Source: Pannonibacter indicus (lineage in GTDB: Bacteria > Pseudomonadota > Alphaproteobacteria > Rhizobiales > Stappiaceae). From it: a stretch of DNA of 64,000 bases. The translations under genes and the position numbers were made by a program. Position 1 is the first letter of the stretch. Each line of letters begins with the position of its first letter. Under the pieces are notes generated by a model that saw only the letters and a program-made list of their open reading frames with translations, did not search any database and had not been told where the DNA came from. Location of the stretch: the NCBI RefSeq assembly GCF_001418225.1, contig NZ_LIPT01000002.1:186001-250000 (forward strand). The letters run 5' to 3'. Positions 1,507-15,147 of this stretch are shown piece by piece.

Positions 1507-1950
1507 GTGGTCAAGCGCTGTATCTGGACTTTTACGGACGCGCTCATGTTCACACCCTTGCTTGACTGGCTCGACGCCAGTCCCCGCCGGTGGCATTTGT
1601 TCAATGTCATTCAGGCGGCTCTTCTTCTGGCCCTTGCCGGGCAGGTCTTCACCATCATTGCCATGGCTGTTCTGGCAGGACTTGCCTTTCTGTCCTGGAG
1701 AGCAGGTCTCGCCAGGCTCCGCAGCCTTCGGACGGTGCATGCCTATGATGTGGTTCTGGCCATCATGCCCCAGACCGCAGCGCTCACTGTCGCTGCAATC
1801 GGCTTATGGCTGACAACGCTGCCTGGCATGAAGCTGCCGGGCCTCGCCATCTTCGCGTTCCACGCCGTCATCGCTGCATGGTGGGCCTGCGACCTCGAAA
1901 ACCCGGAACACATGGAGGTTGCAGCCCCGCGCCGGGTGGAGGTGCTGTAA
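1507..1950 (+). CDS. small polytopic membrane protein of the bd-like oxidase unit
   Basis: About 147 residues with three to four hydrophobic segments (around LFNVIQAALLLALAGQVFTI, AMAVLAGLAFLSW, VAAIGLWLTTLPG and LAIFAFHAVIAAWWAC), so an inner-membrane protein. I do not recognise a named family. Its stop overlaps the ATG of the CydA-like/cytochrome c gene by one base (TAATG), so the two are translationally coupled. It is the first gene of the unit and could be an accessory subunit or assembly factor. The start is uncertain: no good ribosome site precedes GTG 1507 or ATG 1546, and TTG 1471 lies inside the palindromic operator. Confidence 0.6.
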   Translation: MVKRCIWTFTDALMFTPLLDWLDASPRRWHLFNVIQAALLLALAGQVFTIIAMAVLAGLAFLSWRAGLARLRSLRTVHAYDVVLAIMPQTAALTVAAIGLWLTTLPGMKLPGLAIFAFHAVIAAWWACDLENPEHMEVAAPRRVEVL

Positions 1951-3404
1951 TGGATTTTCCAATCTTTCATCTGGACATGATGGGCAACCGGCTGCTGATT
2001 GCGGTCATTGCCATCTTGCATGTGATCATCAACCATGGGCTCGCAGTGGGTATGATGCCGCTGGTTGCCGCCATGGAATGGTATGGCGCCAGGAAAAAGG
2101 ACGAGCGCTGGGACAAGCTGGCCCACCGCATTCTCTTCTTCGCCTTCCTCATCACCACAACGGTAGGGGCGCTGACAGGTGTCGGTATCTGGCTGTCGGT
2201 GTCGCTGGTCAATCCCTATTCGATCGCCAGCCTGATCCGGGTCTTCTTCTGGGGCTGGTTCATCGAGTGGCTGGTGTTCATCACCGAAGTGGTGCTCATC
2301 CTCGCCTATTTCCTGACATGGAAGAAGTGGACCGGGGCCCGCAAGGCCGCGCACATCCGGCTTGGTTTTGCTCTGGCCATTTTCTCCTGGATCACAATGG
2401 CGATCATCGTCTCGATCCTTGGCTTCATGATGGATCCCGGCAACTGGCTGAGCGGCAACAGCCTGTGGAACGGCTTCACCAATCCGGTCTACCTGCCGCA
2501 GCTGGCCTTCCGTACGGCGCTTGCCATGGCCTTTGCCGCCGTGATCGCGCTGGTGCTGATCCTGTTCTTCACCAGCCGTCATGACCCATTCCGTTATCAG
2601 GCGGTTCGGGCGGTGTCGCTTTTCGGCGTCATGGCAGCGCCTTTCGTCGTCATCGGGGGATACTGGTACTATACCGCCGTGCCCGCCGCGATGCTCGACA
2701 ATCTGGCAACATCCCTGCTGACGCTGCAATTCGAGGATTGGCAGAGCACCCTCCTTTGGGGCATGGCGCTGGTTGCCGGGTCCGTTCTGCTGGTGGCTCA
2801 ACTCGGCGTCCTGCGTCCGCACTATATACCGCGCCTGTTGCTGATGGTCCCTCTCCTCGGCATTGTCTGGCTGACCGGTCATTTCGAGCGCGTGCGCGAG
2901 TTCATCCGCAAGCCCTATGTCATCGGTCAGTACATGTATGCCAATGGCCTGAGGGTGGAGGACTATCCGCTCTACAAGGAAAAGGGGCTGCTCGCCTTCG
3001 CCACCTACAGTCATCCACTGACGGAAGAGGAACGATCTGCCATCCCTGCCGGGACAGAGGTTGCGGACATTCAGGCAGGCAAAGACGTCTTCATGATCGC
3101 CTGTTCGCGCTGCCACACCGGCAACGGCGTCAACGGCATCCGCGCCCACATGGAACGCATGTTCCCCGGCCAGGAATGGACCCCGGATCTGACCGGCGGC
3201 TACATGGCCTTCATGCATGAGGCACGGCCCTACATGCCGCCCTTCCCCGGTACGGATACGGAACTCGCCCAGCTCGCAGGATACATTGCCCTGATGCAGC
3301 ACTCGCCCATCACGATTGAAGGCGCCCAGCACAGCGGCGTCGTCACGGTCAACAGAGATGCCATGCAAGCCGTTGCCGCCGCGCCGGAGGACAAGCCGCA
3401 ATGA
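1950..3404 (+). CDS. cytochrome bd-superfamily subunit I with C-terminal cytochrome c domain (OR-C-like)
   Basis: 484 residues. About nine membrane segments in residues 1-310 resemble CydA: His24 and His29 in the first helix (AILHVIINHG) and Glu106/Glu113 in a helix FFWGWFIEWLVFITEVVL, matching the CydA Glu pair that lies on the proton path. At the place of the CydA b558 His (FVHT) it reads FRT (Arg188). The tail (about 365-450) is a mono-haem cytochrome c with CSRCH (385-389) and downstream Met residues as possible sixth ligands. No GRQPW motif is present. CydA homologues with a fused c-haem have been described as OR-C families of the bd superfamily; membership here is by eye. It would take electrons from a c-type carrier or quinol to an unknown acceptor, presumably oxygen. 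It overlaps the next gene by ATGA. Confidence 0.75.
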   Translation: MDFPIFHLDMMGNRLLIAVIAILHVIINHGLAVGMMPLVAAMEWYGARKKDERWDKLAHRILFFAFLITTTVGALTGVGIWLSVSLVNPYSIASLIRVFFWGWFIEWLVFITEVVLILAYFLTWKKWTGARKAAHIRLGFALAIFSWITMAIIVSILGFMMDPGNWLSGNSLWNGFTNPVYLPQLAFRTALAMAFAAVIALVLILFFTSRHDPFRYQAVRAVSLFGVMAAPFVVIGGYWYYTAVPAAMLDNLATSLLTLQFEDWQSTLLWGMALVAGSVLLVAQLGVLRPHYIPRLLLMVPLLGIVWLTGHFERVREFIRKPYVIGQYMYANGLRVEDYPLYKEKGLLAFATYSHPLTEEERSAIPAGTEVADIQAGKDVFMIACSRCHTGNGVNGIRAHMERMFPGQEWTPDLTGGYMAFMHEARPYMPPFPGTDTELAQLAGYIALMQHSPITIEGAQHSGVVTVNRDAMQAVAAAPEDKPQ

Positions 3405-4456
3405 ACTCCCAAACCCCTGTCCCTCACGGCATTCCACTGCCGCTGCCGGCACCGGAATGGGTTCTGGTTGCCGTGCTCGTTGGCTTCTTCCTGATGCACA
3501 TCTTCTTCATCACCATGATGGTGGGCGGAACGTTCATGACGCTGGTGTATCAGGTGAAGGGGCTGAAGGAGAGCAAGTGGGAAGCTCTGGCCCATGATCT
3601 GGCAGCAACCATCACCGTGAACAAGTCCATAGCCGTGGTGCTTGGCGTTGGGCCTTTGCTGGCCATCAACACGCTCTACACGGTGTATTTCTACTCCGCA
3701 AATGCGCTGACCGGTGACTTCTGGATCATGATCATCCCGCTGGTCGCCGGGGCCTTCCTGCTGACCTATGCCCACAAGTATCTCTGGGGAAGGCTGCCGG
3801 TCTGGCTGCATCTGGGACTGATTTCAATTGTGGTGGCGGTCTTCGCCTTCGTGCCGCTGATTTTCCTGACCAATGTCAACCTGATGCTCTATCCGGAGCG
3901 CTGGCCGGAGGTGAAGGGTTTCTTCGACGCCCTCATGCTGCCGAACGTCTGGCCGCGGTACTTTCACTTCATCCTGTCCTGCCCGGCCATGGCTGGCCTG
4001 ATGGTCGTATGGATGTACCGCCGACGCGACCAGGAGGAGCTTGCTTCCCATGGCCTTGACCGGGCAGAGATGGTCCGGCTGGGCTACCGCTGGCTGTTGT
4101 GGCCGACAGCCGCTCAGTTCCTTGTGGGCCCCTGGGCCATGCTGACCCTGCCGGAAGTTCCGGGCCCTACGGGCATGGCAACGGCCATCTTCCTCGCCTC
4201 GATGGTGGTCGCGCTTTTTCTCTGCGTTACGGTCTATGCGGAAATCCGCCGGCCGGATACCACGACGGGAAATGGATTTGGTTCGGTGGCAATCTCAATG
4301 CTGGCCATCATGATCATGATGGGCGCGGGACGGCACATGTACCGCGAGGCAGCGATTGATGATCATCAGGCGCTCGTGCAGCAGAAGACGGAGACATTCC
4401 GTGCCCTTTCAGAAGACGCCCGCAAGCGGGCGCTTCAGAATGACACAGGCAACTGA
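3401..4456 (+). CDS. second membrane subunit of the bd-like oxidase, probably a short CydA homologue
   Basis: 351 residues with eight or so membrane helices and no soluble domain. The helix order parallels CydA: His33 in the first helix (FFLMHIFFITMMVGGTF), a conserved-looking KSIAVVLGVGPLL helix, a YAHKYLWG segment, and PRYFHFILSCPAMAGLMVV, where His189 falls where CydA has its b558 ligand (FVHTVSAGYV). The preceding subunit lacks that His, so the two may share haem binding. The start is fixed by the ATGA overlap with the upstream gene. It is probably an obligate partner of that gene. The CydA relationship is my own visual alignment; otherwise it is an unnamed membrane protein. Confidence 0.65.
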   Translation: MNSQTPVPHGIPLPLPAPEWVLVAVLVGFFLMHIFFITMMVGGTFMTLVYQVKGLKESKWEALAHDLAATITVNKSIAVVLGVGPLLAINTLYTVYFYSANALTGDFWIMIIPLVAGAFLLTYAHKYLWGRLPVWLHLGLISIVVAVFAFVPLIFLTNVNLMLYPERWPEVKGFFDALMLPNVWPRYFHFILSCPAMAGLMVVWMYRRRDQEELASHGLDRAEMVRLGYRWLLWPTAAQFLVGPWAMLTLPEVPGPTGMATAIFLASMVVALFLCVTVYAEIRRPDTTTGNGFGSVAISMLAIMIMMGAGRHMYREAAIDDHQALVQQKTETFRALSEDARKRALQNDTGN

Positions 4457-4515
4457 TCTGCTCCAGGGACAGGCTCCTGCGGGAATGCTCCATAAAATAG
4501 TCCGTATCACAGGGG

Positions 4516-4537
4516 CAGCCGGTTTCCAGACCGGCTG
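4516..4537. other. intercistronic hairpin/inverted repeat before regB
   Basis: CAGCCGGT (4516-4523) and ACCGGCTG (4530-4537) form a perfect 8-bp repeat around TTCCAG in the 117-base gap between the oxidase unit and regB. No T-run follows. It could be an attenuating RNA hairpin or a protein-binding site. Confidence 0.4.
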
Positions 4538-4573
4538 TACCTGGCATTCACCAGACAGGAACCGGCAGATCCC

Positions 4574-5887
4574 ATGAACAGTCAGCAGGCCCTTCATATC
4601 GAGCGGCGGGCAGAGCAGAGAAACCTGAAGCTGCTTGTCTGGCTGCGCTGGCTGGCGATCAGCGGGCAGATGCTTGCTGTCATCTTCACGCATTACGTCC
4701 TGAAGGTGCCGCTGCCGATGCAGCAAATTCTGCTGCTGCTAGGCTTTCTCGTGGTGGTGAACCTTGTCGCGGCCTGGCGCGCCTGGCGGCCCGGAAAGCT
4801 TCTGCCCAACGCCATTCTGGGCGATCTGCTGTTGGATGTGTCGGCGCTGACCGCGCTGCTGTTCCTGACCGGAGGTGCCACAAATCCCTTTACCGGACTT
4901 TTCATGCTGCAGGCTATCGTCGCGGCCATCCTGCTCAGGCCCTGGGAGGCGATCACCATCTTCGTGGCAACGGTGGCCGCACAATTCTGGCTCTTGGGCA
5001 ACGGCCTGCCGCTGAACATGCCCGGCACGCATCACATGGGGCACGGCGCTGCAGGCCCCAGCCATTTTGACCTGCATCTGCAGGGCATGTTCCTGAGCTT
5101 CTTCCTCAGCGGCTCGCTGGCCGTGATGTTCATCCTCGGCATCCGATCCAATCTGGCCCGGCGCGACCGGCAGATGACGCGCATGACGCGGCAGATGGAA
5201 GAAGAGACTGTGGTTCTGCGCCTTGGACTTATGGCAGGGACGGCCGCCCACGACCTCGGCACACCATTGACAAACCTTGCCGTCATTCTGGATGACTGGG
5301 TGGATCTTGGGCCTCCGCCGCAGGAGGAATTGCGCAAGCAGGCCCTGCTGATGCAGGAAGCCGTGACCACCTGCCGGGAGAGCATATCGCACATGCTGCG
5401 CAGCGCCGGGCAGAGCCGTCTGGAAAACTCCCGGCCAGTGGATGCCGCCGCCTTTGCCGGGCCAATCGTCGAGACCTGGTGCGCAACACATCCCGGTGTG
5501 ACGCTGATGCTCAAGGACCAGCGGAAGTCGGGCGGAGCCGTGCTGGCAGACATTCTGCTGGAGCGCGCATTGGAGAACCTTTTCGACAATGCGCGGGAAG
5601 CGGGCGCAACAACCCTGACCCTCATACTGGCCGATACCGGCGCTGCCCTGACCCTTTGCGTCGAGGACAACAGACCCGGCTTTCCTGCCCCTATTCTGGA
5701 AGGCCGAACAAATCGAGACTCCGGAGGACAGGCAGCGCGCCTGAAACAGGGCCATGGCCTTGGTCTACTGCTGGTTCAGTCCGTGGTGCGGCGGCTGAAT
5801 GGAGAGCTCGTCCTCTCCAATCTGCCCGGCGGCGGTGCCCGCGCCTGCATCACCCTTCCCACTTTGACCCACACAGGCGCAATCTGA
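4574..5887 (+). CDS. regB: RegB/PrrB-family redox-sensing histidine kinase
   Basis: 437 residues. Membrane domain of about six helices (20-195) containing GGATNPF (100-106), the ubiquinone-sensing signature of RegB. H-box HDLGTPL has the phosphorylated His at 226, and CRES holds Cys267, at the place of the redox-active Cys described in Rhodobacter RegB. The C-terminal HATPase has an N-box (ALENLFDNAREAG) and a G2-type GHGLGLLL. In photosynthetic and other alphaproteobacteria RegB phosphorylates RegA and controls respiration genes with the quinone/oxygen state. The probable partner regA lies beyond cydABX on the other strand. Having the kinase between two quinol-oxidase-type units suggests it controls both. 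Confidence 0.9.
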   Translation: MNSQQALHIERRAEQRNLKLLVWLRWLAISGQMLAVIFTHYVLKVPLPMQQILLLLGFLVVVNLVAAWRAWRPGKLLPNAILGDLLLDVSALTALLFLTGGATNPFTGLFMLQAIVAAILLRPWEAITIFVATVAAQFWLLGNGLPLNMPGTHHMGHGAAGPSHFDLHLQGMFLSFFLSGSLAVMFILGIRSNLARRDRQMTRMTRQMEEETVVLRLGLMAGTAAHDLGTPLTNLAVILDDWVDLGPPPQEELRKQALLMQEAVTTCRESISHMLRSAGQSRLENSRPVDAAAFAGPIVETWCATHPGVTLMLKDQRKSGGAVLADILLERALENLFDNAREAGATTLTLILADTGAALTLCVEDNRPGFPAPILEGRTNRDSGGQAARLKQGHGLGLLLVQSVVRRLNGELVLSNLPGGGARACITLPTLTHTGAI

Positions 5888-5920
5888 AGATGTGGGGCCG
5901 GAGCGTCTAGCCAAACCGGA

Positions 5921-5937
5921 TTGGACAGAGTGTCCAA
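5921..5937. promoter_or_regulatory. 17-bp palindromic operator, copy 2 (TTGGACA-N3-TGTCCAA)
   Basis: A perfect inverted repeat with 7-bp arms and a GAG spacer, in the 173-base regB-cydA gap and 123 bases before cydA. It matches the site at 1471-1487 at 13 of 14 arm positions. It is the strongest shared cis element in the respiratory island. Confidence 0.65.
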
Positions 5938-6060
5938 GGCATGCAGAAACCGGGGCGGCGCCTCTTCCTGCTTGCGGGATGTCAATTCACCACACGTCAA
6001 AAGGCATGAACTGGCTCCACGCCCGGCAATCACCGGGTCAAACGCAAGAGGAGCCAGTCA

Positions 6061-7662
6061 ATGGAGCTCGATATCGTCAGCCTGTCACGGCTGCAGTTCG
6101 CAGCGACGGCCATGTATCATTTTCTCTTCGTGCCGCTCACTCTCGGCCTGTCGGTCGTCGTGGCGATCATGGAGACCGTCTACGTCATGACGGGCCGCCC
6201 GGTGTGGCGGCAGATGACGAAATTCTGGGGAACCCTGTTCGGCATCAACTTCGTGCTGGGCGTGTCCACCGGCATCACAATGGAATTTCAGTTAGGTATG
6301 AACTGGAGTTACTACAGCCACTATGTCGGCGATATCTTCGGCGCACCGCTGGCGATTGAAGGCCTGATGGCTTTCTTCCTTGAGGCGACTTTCGTCGGCC
6401 TCTGGTTCTTCGGCTGGGACAAGATGTCGGCCCGTGCCCATGCCATCGTCGGCTGGTGCGTAGCGCTGGGGTCCAATTTCTCGGCCTTGTGGATCCTGAT
6501 CGCCAATGGCTGGATGCAGAACCCGGTCGGTGCCGTGTTCAACCCGGACACCATGCGCATGGAGCTTTCGAGCTTCTTCGACGTATTGTTCAACCCGGTA
6601 GCCCAGGCCAAGTTCGTGCATACGGTCTCGGCCGGCTATGTCACGGCAGCCATGTTCGTCATGGGCGTTTCCGCCTGGTACATGCTGCATGGCCGTCACA
6701 TGGAAATGGCCCGCCGCTCCATCGCCGTTGCGGCCTCATTCGGCCTCGCCTCAGCTCTCTCCGTCATCGTGCTTGGCGACGAAAGCGGCTACGAAAGCAC
6801 GCTTAACCAGCGCATGAAGCTCGCCACCATGGAAGGCATGTGGGAGACGGAACCTGCACCTGCCGCCTTCACCCTTATCGGCCTGCCCTATCAGGAGGCC
6901 CGTGAAACCCATTATGCCATCAAAATCCCCTACGTGATGGGCCTGATCGGCACCCGCTCGCTGACGGAAGAAATCACCGGCATCAAGGAACTGGTGGCAG
7001 AAGCGGAAGGCCGCATCCGGTCGGGGCTTCTGGCCTATGACTCGCTGGAGACGATCCGCGCCGAACGCAATACCAGTCCGGCGGACGTGCGCGAAACCTT
7101 CGAGGCCAATGGCCGTAATCTCGGCTATGCCATGCTGCTGATGCGATATGTGGAAGATCCACGGCAGGCAACGGAAGAGCAGATCGCCAAAGCAGCCTGG
7201 GATACTGTTCCGGCGGTGCTGCCGATGTTCTGGACCTTCAGGTTCATGGTTGGCGCGGGCTTCCTGATGCTGGCCTTCATCACGGTGATGTTCTGGTACG
7301 GCAATTTCCGCCAGGCACGTTATCCGGCCTGGGCCCTGCGCGCGGCTGTCATCCTGCTGCCGCTGCCATGGCTTGCTGCTGAGGCAGGCTGGTTCGTTGC
7401 CGAATTCGGCAGGCAGCCTTGGACTGTCGACGGCATTTTGCCCACGGCCCTTTCTGTCAGCCGCCTTTCCATGCTCGACCTTGCCCTGACGCTTGCCGGT
7501 TTCGTCGCGCTCTACACCGTCCTGCTGGTGATCGAGATGAAGCTGATGCTGGCTGCGATCCGCAAGGGACCGGTGCAGGACGTGGATGTGACCATGCAAT
7601 GGCAGGCCAGCCACGAGGCACGGCTGACCGCCAGCAACCCGGCTCTTTTCCCTGCGGAGTAA
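6061..7662 (+). CDS. cydA: cytochrome bd quinol oxidase subunit I
   Basis: 533 residues, close to the roughly 520 of E. coli CydA. It binds the haems and oxidises quinol at the periplasmic Q-loop while reducing oxygen to water. Visible marks are His20 in AMYHFLFVPLTLGLS (haem d/b595 region), the Glu-containing helix LMAFFLEATFVGLWFFGWD, His in KFVHTVSAGYV (b558 ligand) and GRQPW at 450-454. A long Q-loop with additional sequence between about 255 and 390 indicates the E. coli-like long form. GAGGAG lies 7 bases before the ATG. The cydB gene follows after 5 bases and cydX after that. Expression is probably controlled through the upstream palindrome and RegBA (inference). Confidence 0.96.
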   Translation: MELDIVSLSRLQFAATAMYHFLFVPLTLGLSVVVAIMETVYVMTGRPVWRQMTKFWGTLFGINFVLGVSTGITMEFQLGMNWSYYSHYVGDIFGAPLAIEGLMAFFLEATFVGLWFFGWDKMSARAHAIVGWCVALGSNFSALWILIANGWMQNPVGAVFNPDTMRMELSSFFDVLFNPVAQAKFVHTVSAGYVTAAMFVMGVSAWYMLHGRHMEMARRSIAVAASFGLASALSVIVLGDESGYESTLNQRMKLATMEGMWETEPAPAAFTLIGLPYQEARETHYAIKIPYVMGLIGTRSLTEEITGIKELVAEAEGRIRSGLLAYDSLETIRAERNTSPADVRETFEANGRNLGYAMLLMRYVEDPRQATEEQIAKAAWDTVPAVLPMFWTFRFMVGAGFLMLAFITVMFWYGNFRQARYPAWALRAAVILLPLPWLAAEAGWFVAEFGRQPWTVDGILPTALSVSRLSMLDLALTLAGFVALYTVLLVIEMKLMLAAIRKGPVQDVDVTMQWQASHEARLTASNPALFPAE

Positions 7663-7667
7663 CTCCC

Positions 7668-8828
7668 ATGATCCTTCATGAACTGCTCTCCTATGATGTT
7701 CTGCGTCTCATCTGGTGGGCTCTGCCCGGCGTTCTGCTGATCGGATTTGCCCTGACGGATGGGTTTGATCTGGGCGTGGGCGCGCTCCTGCCTTTTGTTG
7801 GCCGCACTGATGAGGAGCGGCGCATTGCCATCAACACGGTTGGCCCGGTGTGGGAAGGCAATCAGGTGTGGCTCATTCTCGGCGGCGGGGCCATCTTTGC
7901 GGCCTGGCCGCCGCTTTATGCGGTCAGCTTCTCCGGCTTCTACCTTGCCATGTTTCTGGTGCTCTCGGCCCTGATCCTGCGGCCTGTCGGCTTCAAATAC
8001 CGGAACAAGCGGCCGGATGCCGCGTGGCGCAGCCGTTGGGACTGGGCCCTGTTCACAGGCGGCGCCGTTCCGGCACTTGTGTTTGGTGTCGCAGTTGGCA
8101 ATGCCCTGCAGGGCGTGCCCTTTGAACTGACCGGCCATCTCGTGCCGCTCTACGAAGGCCATGCCATCCTGAAGCTGCTTGGCCTGCTCAACCCCTTTGC
8201 CCTGCTTGCAGGCGTTGTTTCCGCTGCCATGCTGGTCACTCATGGCGCTGCGTGGCTGGCCTTCAAGGCCGAGGGCATCGTGGCCCGGCGGGCCATGGCC
8301 ATCGGTTCGGTCAGCGGTCCGGTGGCAATGCTCGCCTTCGCGCTGGCCGGTGTGTGGCTTGCCTTTGGCATTCCCGCCTACAGCTACGCCGGGAGCATTG
8401 ATCCGTCGGGTCCGTCCAACCCGCTTCTGGCGGAAATTGCGCGCGGCGGTTCATGGCTGGATGCCTACGCCATCCGCCCGTGGATTGCCGTAGCACCGCT
8501 GATGGGCTTTGCCGGTATCGGCCTTGCAACACTTGGCCTGCGCAAAGGGCTGGGAGGATTCTCGCTGCTTGCCTCAAAGCTCGGCATCTTCGGGGTCATC
8601 TCCACCGTGGGCCTGACCATGTTCCCCTTCATCCTGCCCTCATCAAAGCAGCCGGGAGCCTCGCTCACCGTCTGGAATGCCTCCTCCTCGCACCAGACAC
8701 TGTTCATCATGCTGATCTGCACGCTGATCTTCCTGCCCATCGTCCTTGCCTATACCGCATGGGTCTACAAGGTGCTGTGGGGCAAGGTCGGCAGTGACGA
8801 GATCTCCAGTAACCCCAACGCCTACTGA
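7668..8828 (+). CDS. cydB: cytochrome bd quinol oxidase subunit II
   Basis: 386 residues (E. coli 379). The N-terminus IWWALPGVLLIGFALTDGFD carries the CydB signature (ALTDGFDLGVG), and WEGNQVWLI is also typical. About eight or nine membrane helices. It scaffolds subunit I and forms the pseudo-symmetrical heterodimer. The ATG chosen gives the expected CydB N-terminus; longer in-frame starts run into cydA. It is transcribed with cydA and cydX. Confidence 0.96.
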   Translation: MILHELLSYDVLRLIWWALPGVLLIGFALTDGFDLGVGALLPFVGRTDEERRIAINTVGPVWEGNQVWLILGGGAIFAAWPPLYAVSFSGFYLAMFLVLSALILRPVGFKYRNKRPDAAWRSRWDWALFTGGAVPALVFGVAVGNALQGVPFELTGHLVPLYEGHAILKLLGLLNPFALLAGVVSAAMLVTHGAAWLAFKAEGIVARRAMAIGSVSGPVAMLAFALAGVWLAFGIPAYSYAGSIDPSGPSNPLLAEIARGGSWLDAYAIRPWIAVAPLMGFAGIGLATLGLRKGLGGFSLLASKLGIFGVISTVGLTMFPFILPSSKQPGASLTVWNASSSHQTLFIMLICTLIFLPIVLAYTAWVYKVLWGKVGSDEISSNPNAY

Positions 8829-8840
8829 AAGGAACGGAAG

Positions 8841-8954
8841 ATGTGGTACTTCGCCTGGCTTCTCGGACTGCCCGCCGCCTTGTTTGCCGTTGTCAATGCC
8901 ATGTGGCTTGAGATGGCCGCAGACCGCGCCCTGACGGCCCGCGCCAAACGTTGA
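8841..8954 (+). CDS. cydX: small cytochrome bd subunit CydX
   Basis: 37 residues, 12 bases after cydB, with GGAACGGAAG just ahead of the ATG. It starts MWYFAWLLGLPAALFAVVNA, the hallmark of CydX/YbgT, with one membrane helix and then a short basic tail ending ARAKR. CydX stabilises the haems of cytochrome bd in E. coli and Brucella. The gene is shorter than most gene-finding cut-offs and could be missed. Confidence 0.93.
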   Translation: MWYFAWLLGLPAALFAVVNAMWLEMAADRALTARAKR

Positions 8955-9045: not shown

Positions 9046-9597
9046 TCAGCGAACCGGCTGTTTGGCAAGCTTTCTGGCCAGCGTGCGCCGGTGCATGCCA
9101 AGACGCCGGGCAGCCTCCGAAATGTTGAAATCCGTTTCTGCAAGCATGCGCTGGATGGTTTCCCACTCCTGCGTACGCAAGGAAGATACGCGCGGCGGGC
9201 TGATTTCCACCGGCTCACGCCCCGCCACATGCTCGAAGGCTGCCTCGATCTCCCGCGCAGTCGCAGGTTTTGCCAGATAATGAGTCGCCCCCAGCTTGAT
9301 CGCCTCCACCGTTGTGGCGATCGAAGCAAAGCCGGTCAGAACGACAATCCGGGGCGCAGGATCGAGCCAGGCCAACGCGGTAATCACATCCAGCCCGCTG
9401 CCTTCTGCCAGCTTCAAATCAACGATCGCCCGGTCAGGTGTCTGATGCTGCATCTGCAGCAATGCATCTTCCACCGACCTGGCCACCTGCACCTGGTAAC
9501 CACGCTGCGTGAAGCTTGCTGACAGCGTTGCACCGAGCTTCGGATCATCCTCGACGATCAACAGGCGCCGAGATACATCCCTTGACTGCGTCCGCAT
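9046..9597 (-). CDS. regA: RegA/PrrA/ActR-family response regulator
   Basis: 183 residues, the usual RegA length. Receiver domain with the acidic pocket VEDD, phospho-acceptor Asp60 (AIVDLKL), Thr88 and Lys110, then a proline-containing linker (EISPPR) and a Fis-type helix-turn-helix NISEAARRLGMHRRTLARKL, close to the very conserved RegA recognition helix. AAGGGGA precedes the ATG by 8 bases. The predicted partner is the RegB kinase 3 kb away; the two flank cydABX. It probably activates or represses the oxidase units according to redox state (established for RegA in relatives, inferred here). Confidence 0.92.
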   Translation of the reverse strand: MRTQSRDVSRRLLIVEDDPKLGATLSASFTQRGYQVQVARSVEDALLQMQHQTPDRAIVDLKLAEGSGLDVITALAWLDPAPRIVVLTGFASIATTVEAIKLGATHYLAKPATAREIEAAFEHVAGREPVEISPPRVSSLRTQEWETIQRMLAETDFNISEAARRLGMHRRTLARKLAKQPVR

Positions 9598-9758
9598 CCT
9601 GAGTTCCCCTTGAGCCCAGCACAACTGATCTGCCACAGGACGCGGGACGGCGCGACAGATTGCAGGGTGCCCGCGACGCCATGCCGCGCCGGGCACCAGC
9701 CTCACGGCAAGCCGTCTGCCGCGTCTTGGTGGACATCAACTCCTAGTGGAGATGAAGC

Positions 9759-13343: not shown

Positions 13344-14675
13344 TTACTTGTTGGCCGCTTCGAACTCGCGGATCAGCGCATTACCGCGCTTGACGAGGTC
13401 ATCGAGAGCCTGCTGCGAGGTCTTGGAACCGCTGAGCATCTGCTCGAACTCTTCGTCGATGATCGCACGGATCTGGACGTAGTTGCCGAAGCGCAGGCCC
13501 TTGGAGTTGGCAGTCGGGGCATTCAGCGTCATCTGCTTGATGGAGACGTCAGCGCCCGGGTTCTTCTCGTAGTAGCCCTGTTCCGTGGACAGGTCATAGG
13601 CGGCCTGGGTGATCGGCAGGTAACCGGTGGCCTGGTGCCATTCAGCCTGAACTTCAGCGGAGGACAGGTAGCTGAAGAAGGAGGCTACGCCCTTGTACTC
13701 CTCAGCCTGCTTGCCCTGCAGCACCCACAGGGTGGCGCCACCGATGATGGTGTTCTGCGGAGCGCCCGGAACGTCGCTGTAATAGGGCAGCATGCCAACG
13801 CCGACCTTGAAGTCCTTGGCGTTTGCGTTCACGGCAGCGCGGGCAGCCGAGGAGTTCATGTAGATGGCGCATTCCTGCGAGTAGAACTTCGGGGGGGCGT
13901 CGTTGCCGCCGGCCGGACCGCCGTACTGGAAGATGCCCTCGTCCTGCCACTTCTTCAGGTTGCCCCAGTGACGGGCCTGGATCTCGCCGTTCAACGTCAG
14001 CTCGGCGCCGAGGCCACCGAAGCCGTTTTCCAGAGTGCCTATCGGCAGGTTGTGCCAGGCAGAGAAGTTTTCGGTCTGCGCCCAGGAAACCCAGGCAGTG
14101 GTGAAGCCGCACTTGGCAGCGCCGGATTCCATGATCTTCTTGGAGAAGCTCTCGACCTCTTCCCAGGTCTTCGGCGGGGTTTCCGGATCAAGGCCAGCCT
14201 TCTCGAAGACGTCCTTGTTGTAATAGAGCACCGGGGTGGAGGAGTTGAACGGCATGGACAGCATGTTGCCGTCCGTGTCGGTGTAGTAGCCGACGACGGC
14301 CGGCAGGAAGGCCTTCGGATCAAAGGCTTCGCCAGCGTCAGCCATCAGCTGGTAGACCGGATAAACGGCGCCCTTGGCTGCCATCATGGTGCCGGTGCCG
14401 ACTTCGAACACCTGAACGATATGCGGCTGCTGGCCGGCGCGGAAGGCGGCGATAGCGGCCGTCATGGTCTCGGCGTAGCTGCCCTTGTAGGTCGGGACAA
14501 CCTTGTACTCGCTCTGCGAGGCATTGTACTTGGTGGCGATCTCTTCGAGCTTCTGGCCCAGCTCACCGCCCATGGCATGCCACCAGGCAATTTCCGTGAC
14601 AGCGAACGATGCAGAGGTGGTGCCCATGAGGGCGGCAGCGGCAAAGAGGCCGGCTGCGATATGACGCTTAGCCAT
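13344..14675 (-). CDS. ugpB: sn-glycerol-3-phosphate-binding periplasmic protein
   Basis: 443 residues (E. coli 438). Sec signal peptide (RHIAAGLFAAAALMGTTSASFA), then the family-1 binding-protein fold with ITEIAWWHAM-like start (TEIAWWHAMGGELG), the UgpB-typical FNSSTPVLYYNKD and an internal WVSWAQTENFSAWHN. First gene of ugpBAEC. The ATG with GGGAG 9 bases upstream begins the signal peptide; longer in-frame starts would add a non-secretory leader. It delivers glycerol-3-phosphate and glycerophosphodiesters to UgpAE. The neighbouring phosphate transporter supports a phosphorus theme, but I found no clear Pho box; a different operator (see 14811-14844) stands upstream. Confidence 0.93.
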   Translation of the reverse strand: MAKRHIAAGLFAAAALMGTTSASFAVTEIAWWHAMGGELGQKLEEIATKYNASQSEYKVVPTYKGSYAETMTAAIAAFRAGQQPHIVQVFEVGTGTMMAAKGAVYPVYQLMADAGEAFDPKAFLPAVVGYYTDTDGNMLSMPFNSSTPVLYYNKDVFEKAGLDPETPPKTWEEVESFSKKIMESGAAKCGFTTAWVSWAQTENFSAWHNLPIGTLENGFGGLGAELTLNGEIQARHWGNLKKWQDEGIFQYGGPAGGNDAPPKFYSQECAIYMNSSAARAAVNANAKDFKVGVGMLPYYSDVPGAPQNTIIGGATLWVLQGKQAEEYKGVASFFSYLSSAEVQAEWHQATGYLPITQAAYDLSTEQGYYEKNPGADVSIKQMTLNAPTANSKGLRFGNYVQIRAIIDEEFEQMLSGSKTSQQALDDLVKRGNALIREFEAANK

Positions 14676-14873: not shown

Positions 14874-15147
14874 CGGCCATATCCGTGCCGCCGCCTCCGG
14901 AAGGGGCATAACGACATGCAAGCCTGCGCGCCAAATCACCACGGCAGCGCCGCACCACACCCCCCCTTGCCAGGCTTCATTAATTTTGCCAGCTTATTTT
15001 CTCTTTACTGCCAAAATGGCGCGTTTCAGCGGCATTTTTCCTTCTCCGCCTTATCATTTGCATCATTCAGGCGTATGAAGGAACAACAGGTTGTACAGAG
15101 CGTATACAATCAGCCTTCCCGTTTGACGGGCTATTCCTGGAGCCGCC

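Follow-up and report, generated by a model that had tools for sequence, protein, structure and literature searches.

What would a bacterium gain from two additional CydA-like proteins, one of them fused to a cytochrome c domain, beside a complete cytochrome bd operon? This question is raised by a locus of Pannonibacter indicus (assembly GCF_001418225.1, genome size 4.17 Mb), which we analysed within a window, meaning the whole stretch of 64,000 nucleotides (nt) at positions 186,001-250,000 of contig NZ_LIPT01000002.1. The two genes, here called A and A', are listed below with the features around them. Our preferred answer, to which we give a probability of about 0.68, is that they encode an OR-C / cytochrome cbd-type, copper-free, two-chain cytochrome c:oxygen oxidoreductase that is switched together with cydABX, most likely by copper starvation. 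Such an enzyme would probably let the host respire oxygen without copper. The host genome also encodes a bc1 cytochrome c1, aa3, bo3 and cbb3 oxidases and two canonical cydAB; since several oxidases are present, the A/A' pair would be an alternative route and not the sole one.

1471-1487: palindrome TTGGAC-N5-GTCCAA, first perfect copy, putative operator of the operon small gene-A-A'-kinase
1546-1950, plus strand: small hydrophobic membrane protein, 134 amino acids (aa), without a Pfam match
1950-3404, plus strand: A subunit, 484 aa, CydA homologue, proposed catalytic subunit
3063-3287, plus strand: cytochrome c domain in the C-terminal part of A (residues 372-446, CSRCH), PF13442
3401-4456, plus strand: A' subunit, 351 aa, CydA-fold partner without c-haem
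4574-5887, plus strand: RegB/PrrB/ActS-like sensor histidine kinase, GGATNPF at residue 100
5921-5937: palindrome TTGGACAGAGTGTCCAA, second perfect copy, 123 bases 5' of the cydA start codon
6061-7662, plus strand: canonical cydA
7665-8828, plus strand: canonical cydB
8841-8954, plus strand: cydX-like open reading frame (ORF), 37 aa, named from its position and length
9046-9705, minus strand: RegA/PrrA/ActR-like response regulator, probably beginning at the ATG 36 codons into the ORF

The proposed catalytic chain and the missing quinol side

A first-pass annotation of this DNA had described the ORFs of 484 and 351 aa and a set of candidate haem ligands, and all of these were found at the places given: H24, H29, E106, E113, F187-R188-T189 and CSRCH (C385, C388, H389) in A, and H189, within YFHF, in A'. 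The reading frames of A and A' overlap by 4 bases. That either of them is a chance or wrong-frame ORF was rejected, as the frames were confirmed and the key residues are near-invariant in alignments.

The claim that A is a CydA homologue with a c-haem domain was borne out by several searches. Pfam matched Cytochrome_CBB3 at residues 372-446 of A (33.3 bits, cut-off 27), and a phmmer search of the Protein Data Bank (PDB) sequences aligned residues 13-174 with Geobacillus CydA (5doq_A, 6e-10); PF01654 was absent from the Pfam results for A, even at E up to 1. An AlphaFold2 (AF2) model of A built from 80 sequences (mean predicted local distance difference test score, pLDDT, 85.1; predicted template modelling score, pTM, 0.84) matched ten CydA chains at E <0.001 in a structure search, the best being 6rx4_A (3.6e-6). 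A joint alignment placed H19, E99, E107, E445 and R448 of Escherichia coli CydA at H24, E106, E113, E317 and R320 of A, respectively. The first-pass statement that GRQPW is lacking holds for the literal string; the equivalent, REFIRKPY, is present in A and brings E317/R320 into line with E445/R448. On its sequence, A is thus a CydA homologue carrying a fused c-haem, and we propose it as the catalytic subunit of a two-chain oxidase, keeping the di-haem ligands.

To see how general these features are, the GTDB genomes were scanned with six aligned A proteins. At least 569 stretches were confirmed, and the best 80 were used for the family counts. CxxCH is found in A in 80/80, and in the alignment of A (80 rows, with locus L044 excluded) H24, H29, E106, E113, R188, E317, R320, K321, P322 and the CxxCH residues are identical in every row. 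H29 is a second invariant histidine, five residues past H24 in helix 1, and has no counterpart in canonical CydA. The excluded locus encodes an A of 694 aa (3997-6078) with two CxxCH motifs, at 375 and 574, and so with a second c-haem domain.

Other canonical ligands are gone from A. Two alignments agreed with the first-pass suggestion that A has lost the b558-type histidine (F187/R188) and that A' has one (H189). In the joint alignment H186 of E. coli CydA falls on F187 of A and M393 on L269, both b558 ligands being lost; R391 of the quinol-side b558 site is likewise not kept, and the long loop between helices 6 and 7, the Q-loop that canonical subunit I carries with H186/M393, has no counterpart in the model of A (helices at 213-251 and 259-288). 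Retention of the CydA fold and the di-haem residues would also suit a quinol oxidase, as in canonical bd, with the c domain as an accessory; the loss of H186, M393, R391 and the loop makes this the least probable of the explanations considered here. Excerpts of a 2021 review state that quinol is the donor for every biochemically characterised bd-type cytochrome and that one using a different donor is still to be shown (PMC8509429), which gives the locus its wider interest. It offers a compact setting for testing whether cytochrome c can be oxidised without copper: the genes are few, the promoter site is obvious, and canonical bd stands in the same operon block as a control.

The A' partner and a probable third haem

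Neither Pfam (above cut-off) nor the PDB sequences yielded a match for A'. Its structure, modelled with AF2 from 73 sequences (mean pLDDT 95.0, pTM 0.91), did: in Foldseek, ranks 1-10 were all CydA chains (E 6.3e-6 to 1.1e-3) and CydB chains appeared only from 8.6e-3. The superposition check thus came out in favour of the CydA-like fold that had been predicted for A', and hhalign agreed, with values of 90.5 with A, 70.2 with CydA and 0.3 with CydB. The candidate identity of A' as CydB was rejected on both results, in line with the earlier observation that the pair contains no CydB.

The ligands of A' are in part complementary to those of A. In the joint alignment H19, H186, E445 and R448 of CydA correspond to H33, H189, H312 and R315 of A'; the positions of E99 and E107 carry I111 and A118. 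Because of these two replacements, A' is probably non-catalytic. In an alignment of 73 rows of A' (8 of the 80 loci were excluded, A' being absent, truncated or unclear in its start), H33, R186, R311 and R315 are identical in 73/73. Residue 189 is His in 67/73 and Glu in 6/73, and residue 307 follows it exactly, with Met wherever 189 is His and Tyr wherever it is Glu. When the set was widened to 83 rows, the pairs were 74 H/M, 7 E/Y, 1 A/V and 1 F/L with zero single changes, and each of the two positions changes 3 times on a tree built without those columns. As H189 and M307 vary together, A' probably holds a His/Met b haem. In place of the first-pass idea of one haem sharing ligands of both chains, the pattern rather suggests separate sites, a di-haem active site in A and an H189/M307 haem in A'. 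With ligands lost from one CydA-fold chain and gained by the other, the location of the third haem can be tested directly.

Some members depart from this pattern. The Glu/Tyr replacement of H189/M307 is seen in a group of six loci (L040, L047, L052, L077, L082 and L086). Three deep-branching members (L009, L010 and L011) lie on Methylosinus and Thermus plasmids; in the first two, A' retains Glu at the E445 position and the H189/M307 pair is missing.

That A and A' form a heterodimer, as had been suggested, is likely, because A' adjoins A in 78/80 loci (of the other two, L046 is at a contig end and in L074 none was found) and the two subfamilies, each a single clade, branch in parallel. A tree of 55 rows resolved one clade each for A, A', canonical CydA and two OR-N-like rows, with A apart from canonical CydA and from the OR-N-like rows; the deep joins of this tree are unsure, since long branches meet there. 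Two divergent CydA relatives of 600-800 aa from Pseudomonadota (L121 and L122), OR-N-like in look, fell outside A and A' in this tree.

A shared palindrome, a dedicated two-component pair and the signal

The window belongs to a clade of 15 loci, comprising the window, an Agrobacterium plasmid and L012-L024, and this clade has a characteristic set of neighbours. A homologue of the small protein lies directly upstream of A in 15/15 clade loci, and its profile had no match in 69 further loci, 3 of them with less than 500 bases upstream. A tblastn search of plasmids with the small gene gave no match at E 1e-3, though the Agrobacterium plasmid copy was found through neighbourhood and profile. The protein that the annotation had left unassigned, still without a Pfam match, is therefore now a conserved third gene of the clade; it is probably a third subunit, an assembly factor being the proposed alternative. 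Its start, first placed at 1507, is likelier the ATG at 1546, because the homologues begin about there and the TTG at 1471 falls within the palindrome.

Downstream of A', the kinase has homologues in the 14 other clade loci (partial in L023, at a contig end) and in Methylosinus, and more distant matches in L029, L044 and L046. The regulator has homologues in 13/14 other clade loci and in Methylosinus, L023 being cut off at the contig end; it is separated from the kinase in the window and in L012. In three cases, the window, L012 and L016, the locus also includes canonical cydAB. The best NCBIfam models were ActS/PrrB/RegB for the kinase (162.2 bits, cut-off 350) and ActR/PrrA/RegA for the regulator (161.8 bits, cut-off 250). 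Since neither score reaches the equivalog cut-off, the pair is, judged from these profiles, RegB/RegA-like and not RegB/RegA proper.

The regulatory link rests on the palindrome TTGGAC-N5-GTCCAA, which is common to the 250-base regions 5' of the small gene. It stands 468-507 bases before the start of A and is perfect in 9/15 clade loci and has one mismatch in 5/15; a perfect copy also precedes A in Methylosinus. Within 700 bases and at no more than one mismatch it was found in 0/68 other loci, L043 and L060 carrying two-mismatch versions. Shuffling predicts about 9 matches at up to two mismatches across the 301 kb of clade loci. The host genome contains exactly two perfect sites in its 4.17 Mb, one before the A/A' operon and the other before canonical cydABX, where about 0.17 would be expected from the base composition of the window. 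One-mismatch palindromes elsewhere in the genome, at flhA-like and lexA-like genes (assigned by eye), were judged to be chance. Upstream of the second cydAB of the genome (L092) there was no palindrome below three mismatches. In relatives, a two-mismatch site lies about 140 bases before cydA in L012, and in L016 a one-mismatch site lies about 200 bases before a cydD-looking ORF, ahead of a cydC-like sequence and cydAB. Because regulator and palindrome co-occur, we infer that the regulator acts on this putative site, which the two perfect genomic copies make testable.

Two kinds of signal can be considered. On the one hand, the same enzyme might be switched by oxygen or by the quinone redox state, as part of a RegB/RegA-type low-oxygen module that raises together one branch fed by cytochrome c (A/A') and another fed by quinol (CydABX). 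The GGxxNPF motif, which we take to be the quinone site of RegB, is present in 15/15 kinase sequences checked, the best models are those of the redox-responsive families named above, though below cut-off, and canonical cydABX has the same palindrome. However, a second RegA-like paralogue is already encoded elsewhere in the host genome (42% identity), L018 has the site at copper-handling genes and L020 has such genes nearby, and the Methylococcus capsulatus homologue responds to copper (excerpts of PMC4831470); we consider this signal unlikely, though it deserves to be taken seriously.

On the other hand, copper starvation as the signal is suggested by several relatives. In L018 (about 14994-15016) a perfect site precedes a CCP_MauG gene, to which the copper chaperone genes SCO1 and PCuAC are adjacent, and in L020 (about 13508 and 14537) a perfect site precedes a TonB receptor gene and a two-mismatch site a MauG-type gene. 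Near the A/A' operon of L021, an ORF (13544-14008) is by eye like the PCuAC of L018. Methanobactin genes lie downstream of the pair on the Methylosinus plasmid, and in Methylobacter psychrophilus (L073) MmoX- and MmoB-type soluble methane monooxygenase genes lie 3.7 kb and more downstream of A. Among recurrent neighbour families, SCO1 (19 loci), YHS (8) and MbnP (4) were seen in Bacteroidota, and MauG in 8 loci in all; the Sco1 and AraC neighbours could carry other meanings. In M. capsulatus, MCA1187 was 28.3-fold up under copper limitation and was detected in the inner membrane by mass spectrometry, and Larsen and Karlsen named it cytochrome cbd and proposed it to be a copper-independent cytochrome c oxidase (excerpts of PMC4831470). 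Bordetella is described, in excerpts of PMC12914433, as requiring canonical CydAB under copper scarcity, and on this ground copper is a plausible signal for both oxidases.

The MauG/peroxidase-like neighbours, present in 8/83 clustered loci, would also suit a role that is not mainly respiratory, such as detoxification of nitric oxide (NO), peroxide or oxygen, or resistance to cyanide or sulfide, tasks some of which canonical bd enzymes perform (excerpts of PMC10839748). Against this, the full set of proton-route residues E106/E113 is invariant (80/80), and no NO-reductase or nitrite-reductase was seen among neighbour families occurring in at least 4 loci, of which 7 family representatives were Pfam-tested; we regard such a role as improbable.

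In the copper-free oxidase that we favour, electrons would pass from the bc1 complex through soluble cytochrome c to the c-haem domain on A, and from this c-haem to the b/d di-haem site in A (H24, E317), where O2 would be reduced, with E106/E113 as the proton route. A' would take CydB's place and its b haem (H189/M307) may relay or store electrons, while the small protein would serve as a third subunit. The A/A' operon and the adjacent cydABX would make up one switchable block, and the dedicated RegB/RegA-like pair, acting through TTGGAC-N5-GTCCAA, would turn on both copper-free oxidases when haem-copper oxidases fail. More tentatively, at somewhat less than even odds, this may hold for Alphaproteobacteria in a stricter form: a dedicated copper-starvation two-component system might switch them at once to a cytochrome c-fed, three-protein cbd complex, with the b haem now housed in a CydA-fold partner instead of the catalytic CydA chain, and to quinol-fed CydABX; the palindrome used for this switch would also drive copper-handling genes in relatives.

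A number of results count against our explanation. Biochemistry of any family member was not found in the literature searched. The first-pass remark that OR-C chemistry is poorly established needs amending to the extent that the M. capsulatus homologue has been studied by transcription and mass spectrometry (excerpts of PMC4831470). With hhalign, the membrane part of A is hardly separated between the CydA profile (probability 17.6, E 0.0014) and CydB (11.4, E 0.0027), and the CydA placement of A thus relies on phmmer, Foldseek and the motif alignment. M307 of A' sits in the last helix, whereas M393 of CydA aligns with I263 of A'; the two Met residues are therefore not the same ligand, and the joint change of H189 and M307 rests on just 3 tree events. 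In L012, the nearest relative, the upstream site is present only at three mismatches. With one mismatch allowed, the host genome has 4 places against 10 for a reversed control, which is no enrichment and leaves only the perfect sites informative. The classical RegA dyad was sought upstream and not found (4 against a mean of 2.4 in shuffles). No copper gene was seen near A in the window itself, and the linkage to soluble methane monooxygenase occurs in just 1/7 Methylococcaceae loci.

Relation to known systems and origin of the pair

OR-C is reportedly a family of the cytochrome bd superfamily described by Murali et al. in 2021, and its members have a c-haem fusion. A shows three features of the OR-C / cytochrome cbd type, namely the di-haem ligands (H19, E99/E107, E445 and R448 in E. 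coli numbering), the C-terminal c-haem domain and the loss of the b558/quinol site; the A/A' pair appears to fit this family, which had already been proposed before. The likeness to OR-C, a CydA relative without a quinol site, follows the descriptions in excerpts of citing papers. Likened by its published description in excerpts of PMC4831470, the cluster MCA1187-MCA1186-MCA1185 is closest: MCA1187 is CydA-like with eight helices and a C-terminal CxxCH, keeps H19 and the helix-4 glutamates (E99 region), has lost H186, M393 and the Q-loop, and has its neighbour MCA1186 as proposed partner, but the cluster includes a dihaem cytochrome, MCA1185, which the window lacks. Compared with that cluster, the gene for the small membrane protein, the pair of kinase and regulator and the palindrome are found in the window only. 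In related Methylococcaceae loci c-haem is also found on A', unlike in the window. Among complete A' proteins (n=74) CxxCH is present in 60, and the 14 without it belong to L037 and to 13 members of the clade that includes the window; A' without c-haem is apparently another new mark of the alphaproteobacterial variant. Apparently new relative to the known family are also the clade-specific small gene, the dedicated two-component pair and the palindrome shared with cydABX. Nothing on this variant, the small gene or the palindrome was found in the open-access literature searched, and a prior description is possible.

Canonical CydABX (6061-8954) shares the CydA fold and the di-haem site residues with the pair, whereas A/A' lacks the b558 ligands in A, the Q-loop and CydB, and c-haem replaces the last helix. 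Archaeal CydAA' oxidises quinol, and OR-N is not known to carry a fused c-haem. Like A and A', which are two adjacent CydA paralogues, both have two CydA paralogues taken as one complex (excerpts of PMC10839748 and PMC12342949). The two-component pair resembles RegB/RegA (PrrBA, ActSR, RoxSR) in its kinase plus regulator architecture, GGxxNPF and a Fis-type helix-turn-helix, but is a dedicated paralogue tied to the A/A' operon and the palindrome. Cys156 of RegA is reported to react with copper (PMC9147068); it has no counterpart in the window's regulator, which from its likely start onward contains no Cys.

The family is widespread: the best 80 of the at least 569 stretches include 36 from Bacteroidota, 20 from Pseudomonadota, 8 from Planctomycetota and 5 from Zixibacteria, among others. 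In a set of 151 genomes, made up of its own and those of 150 relatives (4 of them congeners), only its own contained full-length A; two other matches spanned no more than about 85 residues of the c domain. Among 398 phylum-wide genomes it was found in 3 (its own, G231 and G333), and two more matches were partial. Local inheritance of the pair was rejected, full-length A being nearly absent from relatives, and this sparse occurrence indicates that the pair was probably acquired. Base composition is unremarkable, with a guanine-plus-cytosine content of 0.594-0.633 over 1-9 kb. Upstream of the operon, a gene at 609-1409, which by tblastn against other loci is not kept beside A elsewhere, encodes a DUF4394 protein (PF14339, 222.9 bits).

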